A DNA stretch of 64,000 nt, taken from contig NZ_FOSW01000007.1 in NCBI RefSeq assembly GCF_900114385.1, positions 106,491 through 170,490 of the forward strand, written 5' to 3'. Below the pieces are notes generated by a model that saw only the letters and a program-made list of their open reading frames with translations, did no database searches and had not been told where the DNA came from. Both the position numbers and the translations under genes were made by a program. This document shows, one piece after another, positions 6,139-13,069 of the stretch. Positions within the stretch are counted from its first letter, which is position 1; each line of letters begins with the position of its first letter. The stretch comes from Geodermatophilus ruber. GTDB lineage: Bacteria > Actinomycetota > Actinomycetes > Mycobacteriales > Geodermatophilaceae.

Positions 6139-7118
6139 TGAGCACTGCCGCGCACGGCAACCGCCGAGAGCCCGGCCCCCCGGTCCCCGCTGACGGCCGG
6201 GACCGCCCCGTGGTGTTCCTGCGGGCCGCTCCGGCCCGCCCGCCGCGGCGCAGGTGGTGGGCCCTGGCGCGGGTGACGGCGGGCAGCCTCGTCGTCACCG
6301 GCGCCTTCCTCCTCGTCGTGCTCGTCGGGACGTGGGTCGGGCTGTCGCTGGTGGGTCGGCCCCCGGCCGACCACGCCCGCACCGTCGCCGAGCCGTTCCC
6401 GGGTGCCAACGACCTGCTGGGGCCCGGGAGCCGCGAGCCGCCGGCCGGGACCCGCGGACCGGATCCGCCCGCCGGCCCCGGCACGCTCGACCAGCCGACC
6501 CTGCAGTCCCGTCCGCCGGACGCCGGGCCACCGGAGGAGGGCGCACCCCTCGCCCGGCTGAGCGGCGAGTTGCCCGCTCCGTCCCCGCCGTCGGAGCCCG
6601 CTCCGGCCCGGGCCCCCACCCCGGCCGCGGGCCCTCCGCCTGCCCCGGAGGAGACCGCCGCCGCGCGGCAGCCCCCCGCCGCCCCGTCGGCGGCCGGCGC
6701 GCCTGCCGCGCCGCTGACCGCCCCCACTCCGGAGGCCCCAGCACCCCCCGCACCCCCGGCGGCGCAGCATGTGGCGCCGGCCCCAGCACCCGCTCCGGCT
6801 CCGGCCCCCGCACCGGCTCCGGCCCCCGCACCGGTACCCGCCCCCGCACCGGTACCCGCCCCCGCACCGGCACCGGCACCGGTCCCCGCCCCCGCACCGG
6901 CACCGGCACCCGAGCCGCCACCGGCCGGCCGCCCGGCGTCCGGACCCGGCCAGCACGAACCGGGAGACGGCCGGGCGCAGGCAGGCCGAGGGCACGGGGA
7001 GTGCCACACGGCCGCGGCCCCCGGCACCGGACCGGGCCGGACGCCCGCGGCGCGCGACGACGCGGCGCAGCCCGCCCCCGACCAGCAGCACCGGCCGGCC
7101 ACGCCCGGGCCCCGCTGA
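6138..7118 (+). CDS. Single-pass membrane protein with long Pro/Ala-rich extracytoplasmic tail
   Basis: A hypothetical protein of 326 aa starting at ATG 6138 in a TGATG junction with the LuxR gene. Residues 1-46 are basic and cytoplasmic; a membrane helix lies at about 47-73 ([20 protein letters not shown]). Some 250 residues rich in Pro, Ala and Thr follow, including a run of Ala-Pro repeats at about residues 214-258. No catalytic domain is visible. Such tails often span or bind the cell wall, but a function here is unknown. Operon position suggests that the receiver-less regulator controls it or works with it. Confidence 0.65.
6778..6912 (+). repeat. Low-complexity Ala-Pro-coding repeat
   Basis: Iterated six-base units of the type GCCCCGGCACCG or CCCGCACCGGTA encode (Ala-Pro)n with scattered Val inside the membrane-protein gene. 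This is short-period tandem DNA that could vary in length by slippage. Confidence 0.7.
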
Positions 7119-9274: not shown

Positions 9275-9424
9275 GAGGACGGCGGCCCCGCTGCAGGGAC
9301 CCGCCGCCAGGGTGCGAGTGGCGAGGAGGACGGCGGCCCCGCTGCAGGGACCCGCCGCGAGCGTGCGAGTGGCGAGGAGGACGGCGGCCCCGCTGCAGGG
9401 ACCCGCCGCGAGCGTGCGAGTGGC
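9275..9424. repeat. Three tandem copies of a 51-bp unit between priA and metK
   Basis: Copies begin at 9275, 9326 and 9377 with GAGGACGGCGGCCCCG and continue CTGCAGGGACCCGCCGC. Copy 1 differs slightly (CCAGGGTG for CGAGCGTG). Each copy carries the left arm and loop of the 56-bp hairpin element; only the last runs on into the right arm next to the metK stop. This looks like local tandem expansion of the element. There are no spacers, so it is not a CRISPR array. Confidence 0.85.
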
Positions 9425-9441
9425 GGGGGGCAGCGGGGTCC
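9386..9441 (-). repeat. 56-bp hairpin element, copy A, adjoining the metK stop
   Basis: Left arm CCCCGCTGC pairs with right arm GCAGCGGGG over 9 bp. After a small internal loop CCCGCC pairs with GGCGGG; the apical loop is GCGAGCGTGCGAGT. On the minus strand the metK stop reads TGA followed by GAAAGGACC and the element. Copy B lies at 12076-12131 with compensatory differences. It may act as a terminator, an mRNA-stabilising structure or a REP-like element. Confidence 0.8.
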
Positions 9442-9445
9442 TTTC

Positions 9446-10642
9446 TCAGACCCCGGTGGCCGAGCGCAGCGCGTCGACGCGGTCGAGCCGCTCCCAGGGC
9501 AGGTCGACGTCGGTGCGCCCGAAGTGGCCGTAGGCGGCTGTCTGCGCATAGATCGGGCGCAGCAGGTCCAGATCCCGCACGATCGCGCCCGGGCGCAGAT
9601 CGAAGACCGAGCCAATCGCCTTCTCCAGCACGTCGTCCGGGAGGGACCCGGTGCCGAAGGTCTCCACGAACAACCCGACCGGGTGCGCGGCGCCGATCGC
9701 GTAGGCCACCTGCACCTCGCAGCGGCGGGCCAGGCCCGCGGCGACGACGTTCTTGGCCACCCAGCGCATGGCGTAGGCGCCGGACCGGTCCACCTTCGAC
9801 GGGTCCTTGCCGGAGAAGGCGCCGCCGCCGTGGCGGGCCATGCCGCCGTAGGTGTCGACGATGATCTTGCGGCCGGTGAGCCCGGCGTCGCCCATCGGGC
9901 CGCCGATGACGAACTTGCCGGTCGGGTTGACCAGCAGCCGGTAGCCCTCGGTGGGCAGGCCGAGCGCGGCGAGCTCGGGCTCGACCACGAGCTCCTGCAC
10001 GTCCGGGGTGAGCAGCTGCTCGATGGAGATGTCCTCGGCGTGCTGGGAGGAGACGACCACGGTGTCGACGCCGACCGGCCGGTCGTCCTCGTAGACGACG
10101 GTGACCTGGGTCTTGCCGTCGGGACGGAGGTAGGGCACCGAGCCGTCCTTGCGGACCGCGGACAACCGGCGGGACAGCCGGTGCGCCAGCGCGATCGGCA
10201 GCGGCATCAGCTCGGGGGTCTCGTCGGTCGCGTACCCGAACATCAGCCCCTGGTCGCCGGCGCCCTGCCGCTCGATCTCGTCCTCGGTGGTACCGGAGGT
10301 GCGCGCCTCGTAGGCGGTGTCCACACCCTGGGCGATGTCCGGCGACTGCGAGCCGATCGAGACGCTCACGCCGCAGGAGGCGCCGTCGAAGCCCTTCCGC
10401 GAGGAGTCGTAGCCGATGCCGAGGATGGTGCGGCGGACGATGTCGGCGATGTCGACGTAGCCGGCGGTCGTCACCTCGCCGGCGATGTGCACCTGGCCGG
10501 TGGTGATCAGCGTCTCGACCGCGACCCGGCTGCGCGGGTCCTGCGCGAGCATCGCGTCGAGGATCGAGTCGCTGATCTGGTCGGCGATCTTGTCCGGGTG
10601 GCCCTCGGTCACCGACTCGGACGTGAAGAGGCGGCGTGGCAC
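9446..10642 (-). CDS. metK: S-adenosylmethionine synthetase
   Basis: A 398-aa enzyme making S-adenosylmethionine from ATP and methionine. The family signatures are intact: [12 protein letters not shown] near the N-terminus, [15 protein letters not shown] (about 125-139) and [19 protein letters not shown] (about 270-288, the phosphate-binding loop). The start is GTG 10642. A 130-nt gap separates it from coaBC upstream; I looked there for a SAM riboswitch and did not recognise one. The stop codon is followed directly by the 56-bp hairpin element. Confidence 0.97.
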
Positions 10643-10772
10643 TCGGTACTCCCTGGCTCGGTGACGTGTGGATGGGGCGGCGCTGGTCCCGTACGGCGGC
10701 AGCCGTGCGTCGGTTGCACGTTACCGGCGCGGGGCCGCGGCGGGTCGAACGCGCCCGTCGCGGTCGCGCGGC

Positions 10773-11984
10773 TCAGGACAGCCGCGGGGCCACGGCCGAC
10801 CAGATGCCGGCAGCGACGGCGTCCTTGCTGCCCTGGAGCTCCTCGCCCGCCGTGCCGTCGGCGGCCAGCACCACCGCGGCGTTGTCGGGCCGGCCGAAGA
10901 CCCCTCCGCCGGAGACGTCGTTGACCACGAGCAGGTCACAGCCCTTGCGGGCGAGCTTGGCCCGCGCGTGCGTGAGCACGTCGCCCGCGTCGTCCCCGGT
11001 CTCGGCGGCGAACCCGACGACGAGCTGCCCGGCCGGCCGCTTGGTCACCAGCTCGGCGAGGACGTCGGGGTTGCGCACCAGCGGCACCGCGCTCGGCTCG
11101 GCGGCGCCGCCCTTCTTCAGCTTGGTGGCGGCGACGGTCTCCGGCCGGAAGTCGGCGACCGCGGCGGCCATGACGACGACGTCGGCGTCGGCGGACTCGG
11201 CGAGCATCGCCGCGCGCAGCTCCTCGGCGGTCCCGGCCGGGACGACGCGGACGCCGAACGGTGCGGGCAGGTCGACGTTGGCCGCGACCAGGACCACCTC
11301 GGCGCCGCGGGCGGCGGCGACCCGGGCCAGCGCCCAGCCCTGCCGGCCCGACGAGCGGTTGCCCAGGTAGCGGACCGGGTCCAACGGCTCGCGGGTGCCT
11401 CCGGCGCTGATGACGACGCGGCGGCCCACCAGGTCCTGGGTCAGCGCCCCGGCGCCGGCCGTCAGGACGACGGAGGCCAGCGCGGCGATGTCGGCCGGCT
11501 CGGGCAGCCGGCCGGGACCGGAGTCGGGGCCGGTCAGCCGGCCGACGGCGGGCGGCAGCACGATCGCACCTCGGCGGCGCAGGGTGGCGACGTTGTCCCG
11601 GGTCGCGGGGTGCAGCCACATCTCGGTGTGCATGGCCGGGGCGAAGACGACCGGGCAGTGCGCGGTGAGCAGGGTGGCGGTGAGCAGGTCGTCGGCGCGG
11701 CCGGCGGCGGCGCGGGCGAGCAGGTCGGCCGTGGCCGGGGCGACGACGACCAGGTCGGCGGTCTGCCCGATGCGGACGTGGGCCACCTCGTCGACGTCGG
11801 CCCAGACGTCGGTGGTGACCGGGTTGCCCGACAGCGCCTCGAAGGTGGCCGCGCCGACGAAGCGCAGCGCCGCCGGCGTCGGGACGACCCGCACGTCGTG
11901 TCCGGCCTCGGTGAACGCCCGCAGCAGCAACGCGGCCTTGTAGGCGGCGACGCCCCCGCCCACGCCGAGCACGATCCGGCTCAT
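10773..11984 (-). CDS. coaBC: Bifunctional phosphopantothenoylcysteine decarboxylase / synthetase
   Basis: A 403-aa Dfp/CoaBC fusion catalysing two steps of coenzyme A synthesis. The N-terminal flavin-dependent CoaC half (about 1-175) starts RIVLGVGGGVAAYKA and carries APAMHTEMW, the PxMN-type substrate loop with His in place of Asn. The C-terminal CoaB half (about 185-403) shows VISAGGTREPLDPVRYLGN and later FAAETGD. ATG 11984 has GGGGAGG upstream. A 17-bp perfect hairpin lies 20 nt before the start. It sits in the usual mihF-gmk-rpoZ-coaBC-metK order. Confidence 0.96.
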   Translation of the reverse strand: MSRIVLGVGGGVAAYKAALLLRAFTEAGHDVRVVPTPAALRFVGAATFEALSGNPVTTDVWADVDEVAHVRIGQTADLVVVAPATADLLARAAAGRADDLLTATLLTAHCPVVFAPAMHTEMWLHPATRDNVATLRRRGAIVLPPAVGRLTGPDSGPGRLPEPADIAALASVVLTAGAGALTQDLVGRRVVISAGGTREPLDPVRYLGNRSSGRQGWALARVAAARGAEVVLVAANVDLPAPFGVRVVPAGTAEELRAAMLAESADADVVVMAAAVADFRPETVAATKLKKGGAAEPSAVPLVRNPDVLAELVTKRPAGQLVVGFAAETGDDAGDVLTHARAKLARKGCDLLVVNDVSGGGVFGRPDNAAVVLAADGTAGEELQGSKDAVAAGIWSAVAPRLS

Positions 11985-12003
11985 GCAGTCATCCTCCCCA
12001 CAC

Positions 12004-12040
12004 GAGAACGCACCCGGCAGCCACTGCCGGGTGCGTTCTC
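12004..12040 (-). terminator. 17-bp perfect hairpin between rpoZ and coaBC
   Basis: GAGAACGCACCCGGCAG (12004-12020), a CCA loop and CTGCCGGGTGCGTTCTC (12024-12040) pair without a mismatch. It lies downstream of rpoZ and just before the coaBC ribosome-binding site. No T-tract follows. It may be an intrinsic-type terminator ending the rpoZ transcript or a leader structure for coaBC. Confidence 0.65.
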
Positions 12041-12075
12041 ATCACTTCTGGGTGCCCCTGGTGAGGTACTGGAGC

Positions 12076-12131
12076 GGCCACCCTGCAGGGACCCGCCGCG
12101 AGCCTGCGAGTGGCGGGGGGCAGGGTGGTCC
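12076..12131 (-). repeat. 56-bp hairpin element, copy B, adjoining the rpoZ stop
   Basis: Same layout as copy A: left arm CCACCCTGC pairs with GCAGGGTGG, the core CTGCAGGGACCCGCC and GGCGGGGGGCAG is unchanged, and the loop is GCGAGCCTGCGAGT. The arm differences from copy A preserve pairing. The rpoZ stop reads TGA GAAAGGACC and then the element, exactly as at metK. Confidence 0.8.
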
Positions 12132-12135
12132 TTTC

Positions 12136-12399
12136 TCAGTTGTCGCCGGCGGTGTGGGTGAGCAGGCCCTCGTTGATCTCGCGCAGCGCGATGGAGAGCG
12201 GCTTCTCCTGCGGGGCGGTGTCGACCAGGGGGCCGACGTACTCCAGCAGGCCCTCGGAGAGCTGGCTGTAGTAGGCGTTGATCTGACGCGCGCGCTTGGC
12301 GGCGAAGATCACCAGGCCGTACTTGCTGCTGGTGCGCTCGAGCAGTTCGTCGATCGGCGGGTTGGTGATGCCCTCGGGGGCGGGTGCGACTCCGGACAC
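12136..12399 (-). CDS. rpoZ: RNA polymerase omega subunit
   Basis: An 87-aa RpoZ that aids RNA polymerase assembly. It reads [37 protein letters not shown] and then the actinobacterial C-terminal tail. I chose GTG 12399 because GAGGAG lies 11 nt upstream and the protein then starts close to the conserved core; a start at 12474 would add an unsupported Pro-rich leader. It follows gmk, as is usual in bacteria. The stop is fused to the 56-bp hairpin element. Confidence 0.93.
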
Positions 12400-12457
12400 G
12401 GCGGGGCTTGCTCCTCGATCGTTGGGCGGGAGTGGCGGGCGGCGGGACCAGGCCCCG

Positions 12458-13069
12458 TCACTCGGAGGCGCCACCGCTCCGGAGGGATCCGGACGACGGC
12501 GCAGTCAACAAGCCTACCAACTCGTCTGCGGCCCGGACGACGTCGTCGTTGACCACGACCACGTCGAACTCCCCGGCGGCGTCCAGCTCGGCCTGCGCGA
12601 TGGCCAGCCGGCGCTCCTGCACCGCCGCCGGCTCCGACCCGCGACCGGCCAGCCGGCTGACCAGCTCCCCCCACGAGGGCGGGGCCAGGAAGACCAGCTG
12701 GGCGTCGGTGTCGCGGGCCCGGACCTGGCGCGCCCCCTGCAGCTCGATCTCCAGCAGGGCCGGCGCCCCGGCGGCGAGGCGTTCGCGTACCGGGGCGGCC
12801 GGCGTGCCGTAGCGGTTGCCGGCGTACTCGGCCCACTCGAGCAGGCCGTCATCGGCGATCAGGCGGTCGAACTCGGCATCGGAGACGAAGTGGTAGTGCA
12901 CGCCGTCCACCTCCCCGGGGCGGGGCGGGCGGGTGGTGGCCGACACCGACACCCACACCTCGGGGTGCCGGCGCCGGACCTCGGCCACGACCGTTCCCTT
13001 ACCGACCCCGGACGGGCCGGAGAGCACGGTCAGACGTACCGGGGGGTGCTGGGGGGCGGCACTCGCCAC
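12458..13069 (-). CDS. gmk: Guanylate kinase
   Basis: A 203-aa enzyme phosphorylating GMP to GDP. The P-loop [10 protein letters not shown] is near the N-terminus, [17 protein letters not shown] forms the GMP-binding segment, and the lid region follows. The start at GTG 13069 ([21 protein letters not shown]) gives the normal family length and has GAGGAC upstream. A longer frame to 13195 exists but lacks family similarity. The neighbours mihF and rpoZ are conserved. Confidence 0.96.

Follow-up and report, generated by a model that had tools for sequence, protein, structure and literature searches.

A probable REP-like family of mobile DNA hairpins behind stop codons in Geodermatophilaceae

Two closely similar hairpins stand directly behind the genes metK and rpoZ in a 64,000-nucleotide stretch of the Geodermatophilus ruber genome, which is referred to here as the window. 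The first-pass annotation described them as two stop-codon-linked hairpins of 56 bp with compensatory stem changes, and proposed that selection on pairing rather than on sequence had shaped them. The locus thereby raises the question of whether the element acts as RNA, as a terminator or 3'-end stabiliser, or is a structured mobile repeat. The features listed below are given in window positions, and both hairpins are read on the minus strand. R2 is a covariance model built from 103 copies, including both window copies.

9275 to 9385, minus strand: a pair of additional 51-bp tandem units following copy 1 and comprising loop, 3' half and a portion of the flank, from TRF and R2
9386 to 9441, minus strand: element copy 1, behind metK (R2 match of 77.0 bits, E 9.2e-14; in the training set)
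9446 to 9448, minus strand: metK stop codon TGA with a C before it, which makes the CTGA flank (from the open reading frame and the CTGA preference)
9446 to 10642, minus strand: metK open reading frame
12004 to 12040, minus strand: separate perfect 17-bp hairpin between the element and coaBC, outside the element (compare the separate rpoZ hairpin in other genomes)
12059 to 12075, minus strand: 17-nt tail GCTCCAGTACCTCACCA, part of a longer form of the element (from tails behind other copies)
12076 to 12131, minus strand: element copy 2, behind rpoZ, with outer arms that covary with those of copy 1 (R2 match of 79.3 bits, E 3e-14; in the training set)
12136 to 12138, minus strand: rpoZ stop codon TGA with a C before it, again a CTGA flank (from the open reading frame)
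12136 to 12474, minus strand: rpoZ open reading frame

Both hairpins were recovered at the positions listed, each of 56 nt and beginning 4 nt past the stop codon, and the gene end and hairpin start read CTGA-GAAA-GGACC at metK and rpoZ alike. Copy 1 consists of an 11-pair outer stem with a bulged A, an inner stem of 8 positions and a 10-nt apical loop, TCGCANGCTC. The two copies are unlike at 5 of 56 positions, which represent two compensated stem pairs (C-G replaced by A-T, G-C by C-G) and a single base of the loop, so that the compensatory changes were indeed as first described. TGAGAAAGGACC (at most 1 mismatch) is present at two places in the window, where 0.05 would be expected, the 32-nt core (at most 3 mismatches) has 4 matches there against 0.00 expected, and R2 ranks the metK and rpoZ copies at the top of the window, while an Rfam search of the window at the gathering score gave 0 matches. 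As single RNAs, the two hairpins fold with a stability that is ordinary for their composition (z-scores of -1.3 to -2.1), and the case is carried by covariation and not by energy.

The first description had missed the tandem units behind metK, the 17-nt tail behind rpoZ and the genome-wide family. The repeat reported by TRF behind metK spans 9275-9425, with a period of 51, 3.0 copies and 98% matches, and within its units R2 matched at 9345-9379 (partial) and 9284-9339. A tail with at most 3 substitutions was found behind 47 of 388 copies, the latter being those left once partial 5' ends, duplicates and short flanks had been dropped (the number dropped was not recorded); conversely, 50 of the 93 matches to the tail pattern adjoin an element. 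Two loci of another genome (L257 and L280 of G153) contain arrays in which 3' halves and tails are repeated, which gives the impression that newer copies took the place of older 5' halves, and the metK end of locus L249 (genome G151) has a tail-like GTTCCAGCGCGTCACC close behind the stop and no hairpin. A GC-rich array with periods of 6, 18 and 24 bp lies elsewhere in the window, at 6773-6925, inside long open frames of both strands.

The window copies belong to a dispersed family of repeats, abundant in a bacterial family that lives in soil and on stone. The core (at most 3 mismatches) had 30 matches in the own 5.0-Mb genome and 0 in the reversed control. When the own genome and its relatives were searched with covariance models, as the first-pass annotation had suggested, a model from 13 copies gave at least 116 matches at E≤1 in the own genome (150 of 17142 candidates scored), and R2 matched 28 of the 38 genomes sampled from the own family, taken to be Geodermatophilaceae from the titled hits. 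All copy numbers per genome are lower bounds, with 37-150 candidates scored in each. Over the named genomes, the core pattern was present in at least 115 contig stretches, and the titles among the 80 matches listed were those of Geodermatophilus, Blastococcus, Modestobacter, Trujillonella, other Geodermatophilaceae and one Frankiales MAG. Among 150 genomes sampled from the order, 20 had an R2 match, 18 from the own family and 2 from other families; 110 non-matching genomes of this sample are without a listed family, so that the 18 give no frequency within the own family. Nine of the 10 family genomes without a match belong to the genera g58, g60 and g61. The tenth, G159 of genus g6, has no match at E≤0.001 and one weak match at E≤0.1, whereas its congeners G120, G163 and G188 have 81-149; G064 has four matches at E≤0.1. 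The copies outside the family (G058:C17:105-160 and G068:C6:471-525, one listed hit each) sit 105-525 nt from the starts of contigs of 89 and 21 kb, and may reflect transfer or contamination. Among the titles and abstract openings listed in searches of an open-access library, none describes such a repeat in Geodermatophilaceae.

Comparison of the copies defines the unit as a foot, (N)GAA, and behind it a hairpin 56 nt in length that has a bulged A as well as internal bulges. The apical loop TCGCANGCTC is largely conserved and both stems are variable; in some copies a longer form of the unit ends in the tail GTTCCAGNACGTCACC. In an alignment of 100 distinct copies, which was fitted to the structure (alignments A4 and A5 were fitted to the model), standard pairs made up 91.1% of the pair cells, compared with 78.1% in shuffles and 39-49% when the partner was slid, and 16 of 19 pairs had changed on both sides. 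Thus, the arms of further copies covary strongly, and the proposal that pairing and not sequence is kept holds among the copies. A mutual-information scan that used no structure, run on ungapped copies of 56 and 54 nt, again placed the stem pairs at the top. In the first alignment, of 13 copies, the measure of further pair types, one of five used for covariation, stayed no higher than in the shuffles, and of 186 copies whose loop could be recognised, 50 have no perfectly complementary arm of at least 7 nt. The 54-nt copies of the own genome also showed covariation of positions 15, 38 and 42 as C-G-C or T-A-T; this triple pattern rests on one subfamily and was taken as a founder effect.

The gene calls used to place the copies were made with a simple base-position score, for which five genes of the window served as the training set. 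In the own genome, 102 copies were used after the 14 weakest of the 116 matches had been dropped: tandem gaps hold 47 in the sense orientation and 10 in antisense, convergent gaps 33 and divergent gaps 3, and 9 overlap a called frame. A similar picture was obtained for 144 copies (hits under 18 bits excluded) in 1.2 Mb of the sister species G171 and G174, with 69 tandem sense, 16 tandem antisense, 52 convergent, 5 divergent and 2 in genes. The gene pairs in the same 1.2 Mb are 686 tandem, 168 convergent and 163 divergent, and it should be noted that G171 and G174 share orthologous genes, so that these pooled counts are not independent. In convergent gaps there was no bias towards one replication strand (29 versus 23, one region being taken as one replichore).

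In the flank sample of 388 copies, whose 115 named loci were selected by core match, 232 copies start no more than 12 nt from the stop of a coding frame and 165 at exactly 4 nt. Among the 232 stop-flush copies, 162 have TGA at 4 nt and 13 have TAG at 2 nt. The base before the stop matters: an element follows 99 of 465 CTGA ends, compared with 11 of 245 GTGA and 1 of 52 ATGA ends (12 of 297 together; p-value of 2e-12). The stop link of the element is therefore partly a sequence preference. TTGA ends are too rare for listing, but by subtraction about 4 of 14 carry an element, as do 10 of 55 GTAG and 4 of 44 CTAG ends, and since TTGA and GTAG ends are thus also used, the flank rule is not strictly CTGA. 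The commonest start of the unit is directly after CTGA, with CTAG and GTAG as rarer flanks; it is usually found at a gene end, and both orientations occur. Seventeen antisense or divergent copies have no called gene end on their 5' side, and 10 of them (7 distinct sites) follow a TAG or TAA located 2 or 5 nt before the foot, while four others appeared nested by eye. A second peak of the stop distance, at 29 nt (8 copies in G171 and G174), fits a nested form.

The copies are exchanged rapidly between G171 and G174, the flanks of which are mostly more than 90% identical. For 50 of the 73 G174 copies the corresponding G171 site could be resolved, and it holds the same element in 18 cases, a different one in the same orientation in 14, one in the opposite orientation in 4 and none in 14. 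In the reverse comparison, 36 of 82 G171 copies were resolvable, with the same element in 16, a different one in 11, an opposite one in 2 and no element in 7. The 'same element' counts in both directions are upper bounds, as the arms are not alike in some of the pairs above 85%. Across the genus, the elements at rpoZ ends likewise vary in arms and orientation, and in one case G171 carries a nested copy where G174 has the outer loop CTCGCGAACCTCGCG. In ten pairs of filled and empty ends, picked by eye, the empty end reads CTGA or CTAG each time. One of the 'filled' ends has only an element-like foot, and right-hand anchoring failed for two; in the remaining pairs the target DNA is mostly lost or too different to call, and the cleanest loses four bases. 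By eye, neither target duplications nor terminal inverted repeats, the hallmarks of a MITE, were noticed at these ten ends, including the two unanchored on the right. Lastly, a difference in the stop or in the base before it was seen at 11 of the 45 ends where the elements are unlike or on one side only, compared with 21 of 254 ends without (p-value of 0.003), element status being taken here from a rough pattern with some visible misassignments. Some elements may therefore bring their own stop. For GTAG REPs, one study reports that they provide TAG stops (PMC3733652).

These results fit the 'structured mobile repeat' of the first-pass annotation, in that the family is dispersed and turns over between close species. 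The alternative is a functional RNA, in which the hairpin behind the stop would terminate transcription, protect the mRNA 3' end or slow terminating ribosomes, and in which the stems would be kept by compensation. The strong covariation, the sharp 4-nt spacing from the stop and the sense bias in tandem gaps (47 versus 10 in the own genome, 69 versus 16 in G171 and G174) all suit this view, and the element resembles an intrinsic terminator in being a GC-rich hairpin behind stop codons. However, it differs from a terminator in its conserved loop, in its absence from many orthologous ends and in the window copies being without a T-tract; between 9100 and 12500, 0 terminator-like sites were found. 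Orthologous ends differ in whether an element is present, in its type and in its orientation, and occurrence follows the base before TGA, which is not obviously needed for a role after the stop. At rpoZ ends (52 loci, 2 of them without an rpoZ end in view), the element was detected in 30 of 50 genomes, and 37 of 50 have, no further than 300 nt away, a separate hairpin with 9 bp or more, which is seen in 23 of the 30 genomes with the element (one of these hairpins, in G029, is probably within coaBC) and in 14 of the 20 without; at least 4 of these 20 (G163, G092, G113 and G181) carry a degenerate or reversed element by eye, and excluding them leaves 10 of 16. Judged from its counterparts in other genomes, the hairpin at 12004 to 12040 is probably the native rpoZ 3'-end hairpin. 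Sense copies kept as mRNA would favour G.U over A.C mismatches, but in two alignments the outer stem had 36 G.T and 51 A.C pairs and the inner stem 29 G.T and 211 A.C (185 of the latter at two positions); G.U is thus not in excess and A.C not rarer in the sense RNA, which speaks for the DNA level. Where copies are kept at one site, changes were counted at 15 of 386 stem sites and at 21 of 197 loop sites, and a weak constraint on the stems at fixed sites is possible. Yet in the 11 copies common to G171 and G174 at one site, 13 of the 14 changed pairs were changed on one side and one was compensated. REPs close to a stop codon reportedly affect translation, according to Liang, Rudd and Deutscher. 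A role of REPs in regulating translation is also mentioned in PMC6006769. Taken together, the lesser change of stems than of loops and the dominance of sense copies leave an RNA role some room, but a terminator or 3'-end stabiliser finds little favour in these data and we regard a functional RNA as distinctly improbable.

Several known mobile systems resemble the element. As a short high-copy intergenic palindrome behind gene 3' ends, with a long bulged hairpin and a tag by the foot, it is like the GTAG REPs that belong to RAYTs (PMC3733652; PMC6006769). Indeed, it is a palindrome within the 20-65 nt range of REPs, with 116 matches and only 2 of 144 G171 and G174 copies inside genes. It differs from GTAG REPs in its main flank, CTGA, its larger conserved apical loop, its tail and its actinobacterial host. 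The GTAG or GTGG tag 0-2 nt before the foot is found in a minority only (13 of 232 with TAG at 2 nt), and there is no Y1 tyrosine transposase in 57 family genomes; on account of the tag and the transposase we do not file the element as a GTAG REP. The CGTC REPs, for which no dedicated transposase is reported (PMC3733652), are likewise REP-like, but they have a CGTC (or TGTC or CCTC) tag, a stem of 8-9 bp and a loop of 4-5 nt, in contrast to the two stems, 10-nt loop and CTGA or TAG flank seen here. REPINs share the miniature mobile palindromes and the compensatory hairpin changes, but are REP doublets tied to RAYTs (PMC3116915), whereas the present unit is a single hairpin. Left-end hairpins of IS200/IS605 elements have in common with it a flanking target tetranucleotide, a short foot and the absence of a noticed target duplication (PMC6006769); here, in contrast, there is no transposase gene and no right-end hairpin, and target DNA is often lost. 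By analogy with these systems, the flank tetranucleotide, short foot and bulged hairpin may work like REP or IS200/IS605 ends (PMC6006769).

The search for a mobilising enzyme covered three candidate families, none of which could be retained. PF01797, the family of RAYT and IS200/IS605 transposases, was found in 0 of 57 family genomes and not in the own genome, whereas the control search found it in 5 of 14. Of 38 genomes, 21 encode reverse transcriptase (PF00078), yet G000, G057, G085 and G175 (120-149 matches) do not, and 25 encode IS110 (PF01548), which G170, G120 and G106 (105-149 matches) lack. A long autonomous version of the element was also rejected: G171, G174 and the 115 named loci contain 284 GA[AG]GGACC feet, of which 132 have no element hit, and the 17 of these that follow a stop triplet were read as nested, degenerate or chance occurrences. 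Two special cases of mobility can be considered. Spread could be enzyme-free: replication stalled at the hairpins would switch template between copies that share CTGA-NGAAGGACC, carrying one element to another gene end and deleting local DNA. The absences of all three families just described, the lost target DNA, the frequent swaps at one site and the differing stops and preceding bases at element ends, as assessed with the rough pattern, agree with this. However, the flank homology amounts to only about 4 to 12 nt, nested copies replace a defined segment, the loop, and the near-empty G159 beside copy-rich congeners suggests a specific factor that can be lost; we consider this route rather unlikely. 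The element might instead be a canonical GTAG REP whose RAYT was lost or missed, since the hairpin-bulge-hairpin form matches the REP criteria quoted in PMC6006769 and TAG two nt before the foot occurs in the 13 stop-flush copies mentioned as well as in others. TGA at 4 nt in 162 of 232 copies and the distribution of PF01797 speak against it, as does the fast turnover between two close species, which argues against extinct machinery, and we give it a slightly smaller chance still. Both cases overlap with the main explanation, so that the likelihoods assigned to the different readings do not sum to one.

Altogether, the family is best explained as a REP-like repeat of Geodermatophilaceae without a RAYT and with a CTGA or TAG flank, not as a terminator or stabiliser RNA, and we consider it probable that the element is mobile DNA in the form of a miniature palindrome. 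In this process, one DNA strand would fold into the hairpin, a putative protein would recognise foot, bulge and loop, and, as with the ends of REPs or IS200/IS605 elements, the unit would be attached on the 3' side of the flank motif. The concentration of copies at gene ends would follow from three things: TGA accounts for most stops, CTGA makes up about half of all ends, and insertions at other places are purged. The arms would stay complementary because well-paired copies are better donors. Several findings count against such mobility: no enzyme turned up in the PF01797 search of 57 family genomes, the convergent gaps of one region show no strand bias, the flank rule extends to TTGA and GTAG ends, filled and empty ends rarely resemble clean insertions, not all copies are well paired (the 50 of 186 above), the dominance of sense copies is also predicted by an RNA role, and the smaller change of stems than of loops at fixed sites may reflect local constraint. 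A more specific proposal, namely that a class of mobile hairpins spreads to CTGA gene ends and to the loops of its kin without a Y1/HUH transposase, by an unrecognised enzyme or by replication template switching, its arms being kept or rewritten as complementary pairs in each round, is a tentative one that we hold to be somewhat short of an even chance.

How REP-like repeats without a dedicated transposase spread is an open puzzle, which has been stated for CGTC REPs in PMC3733652. With its abundance, fast movement and measurable flank motif, the present family is a good case for learning how tiny elements spread, and the near-empty G159 beside the copy-rich G120, G163 and G188 means that the machinery could be sought by comparing gene content. 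It also shows that textbook covariation and a fixed place four bases behind a stop codon do not by themselves make a hairpin a regulatory RNA.
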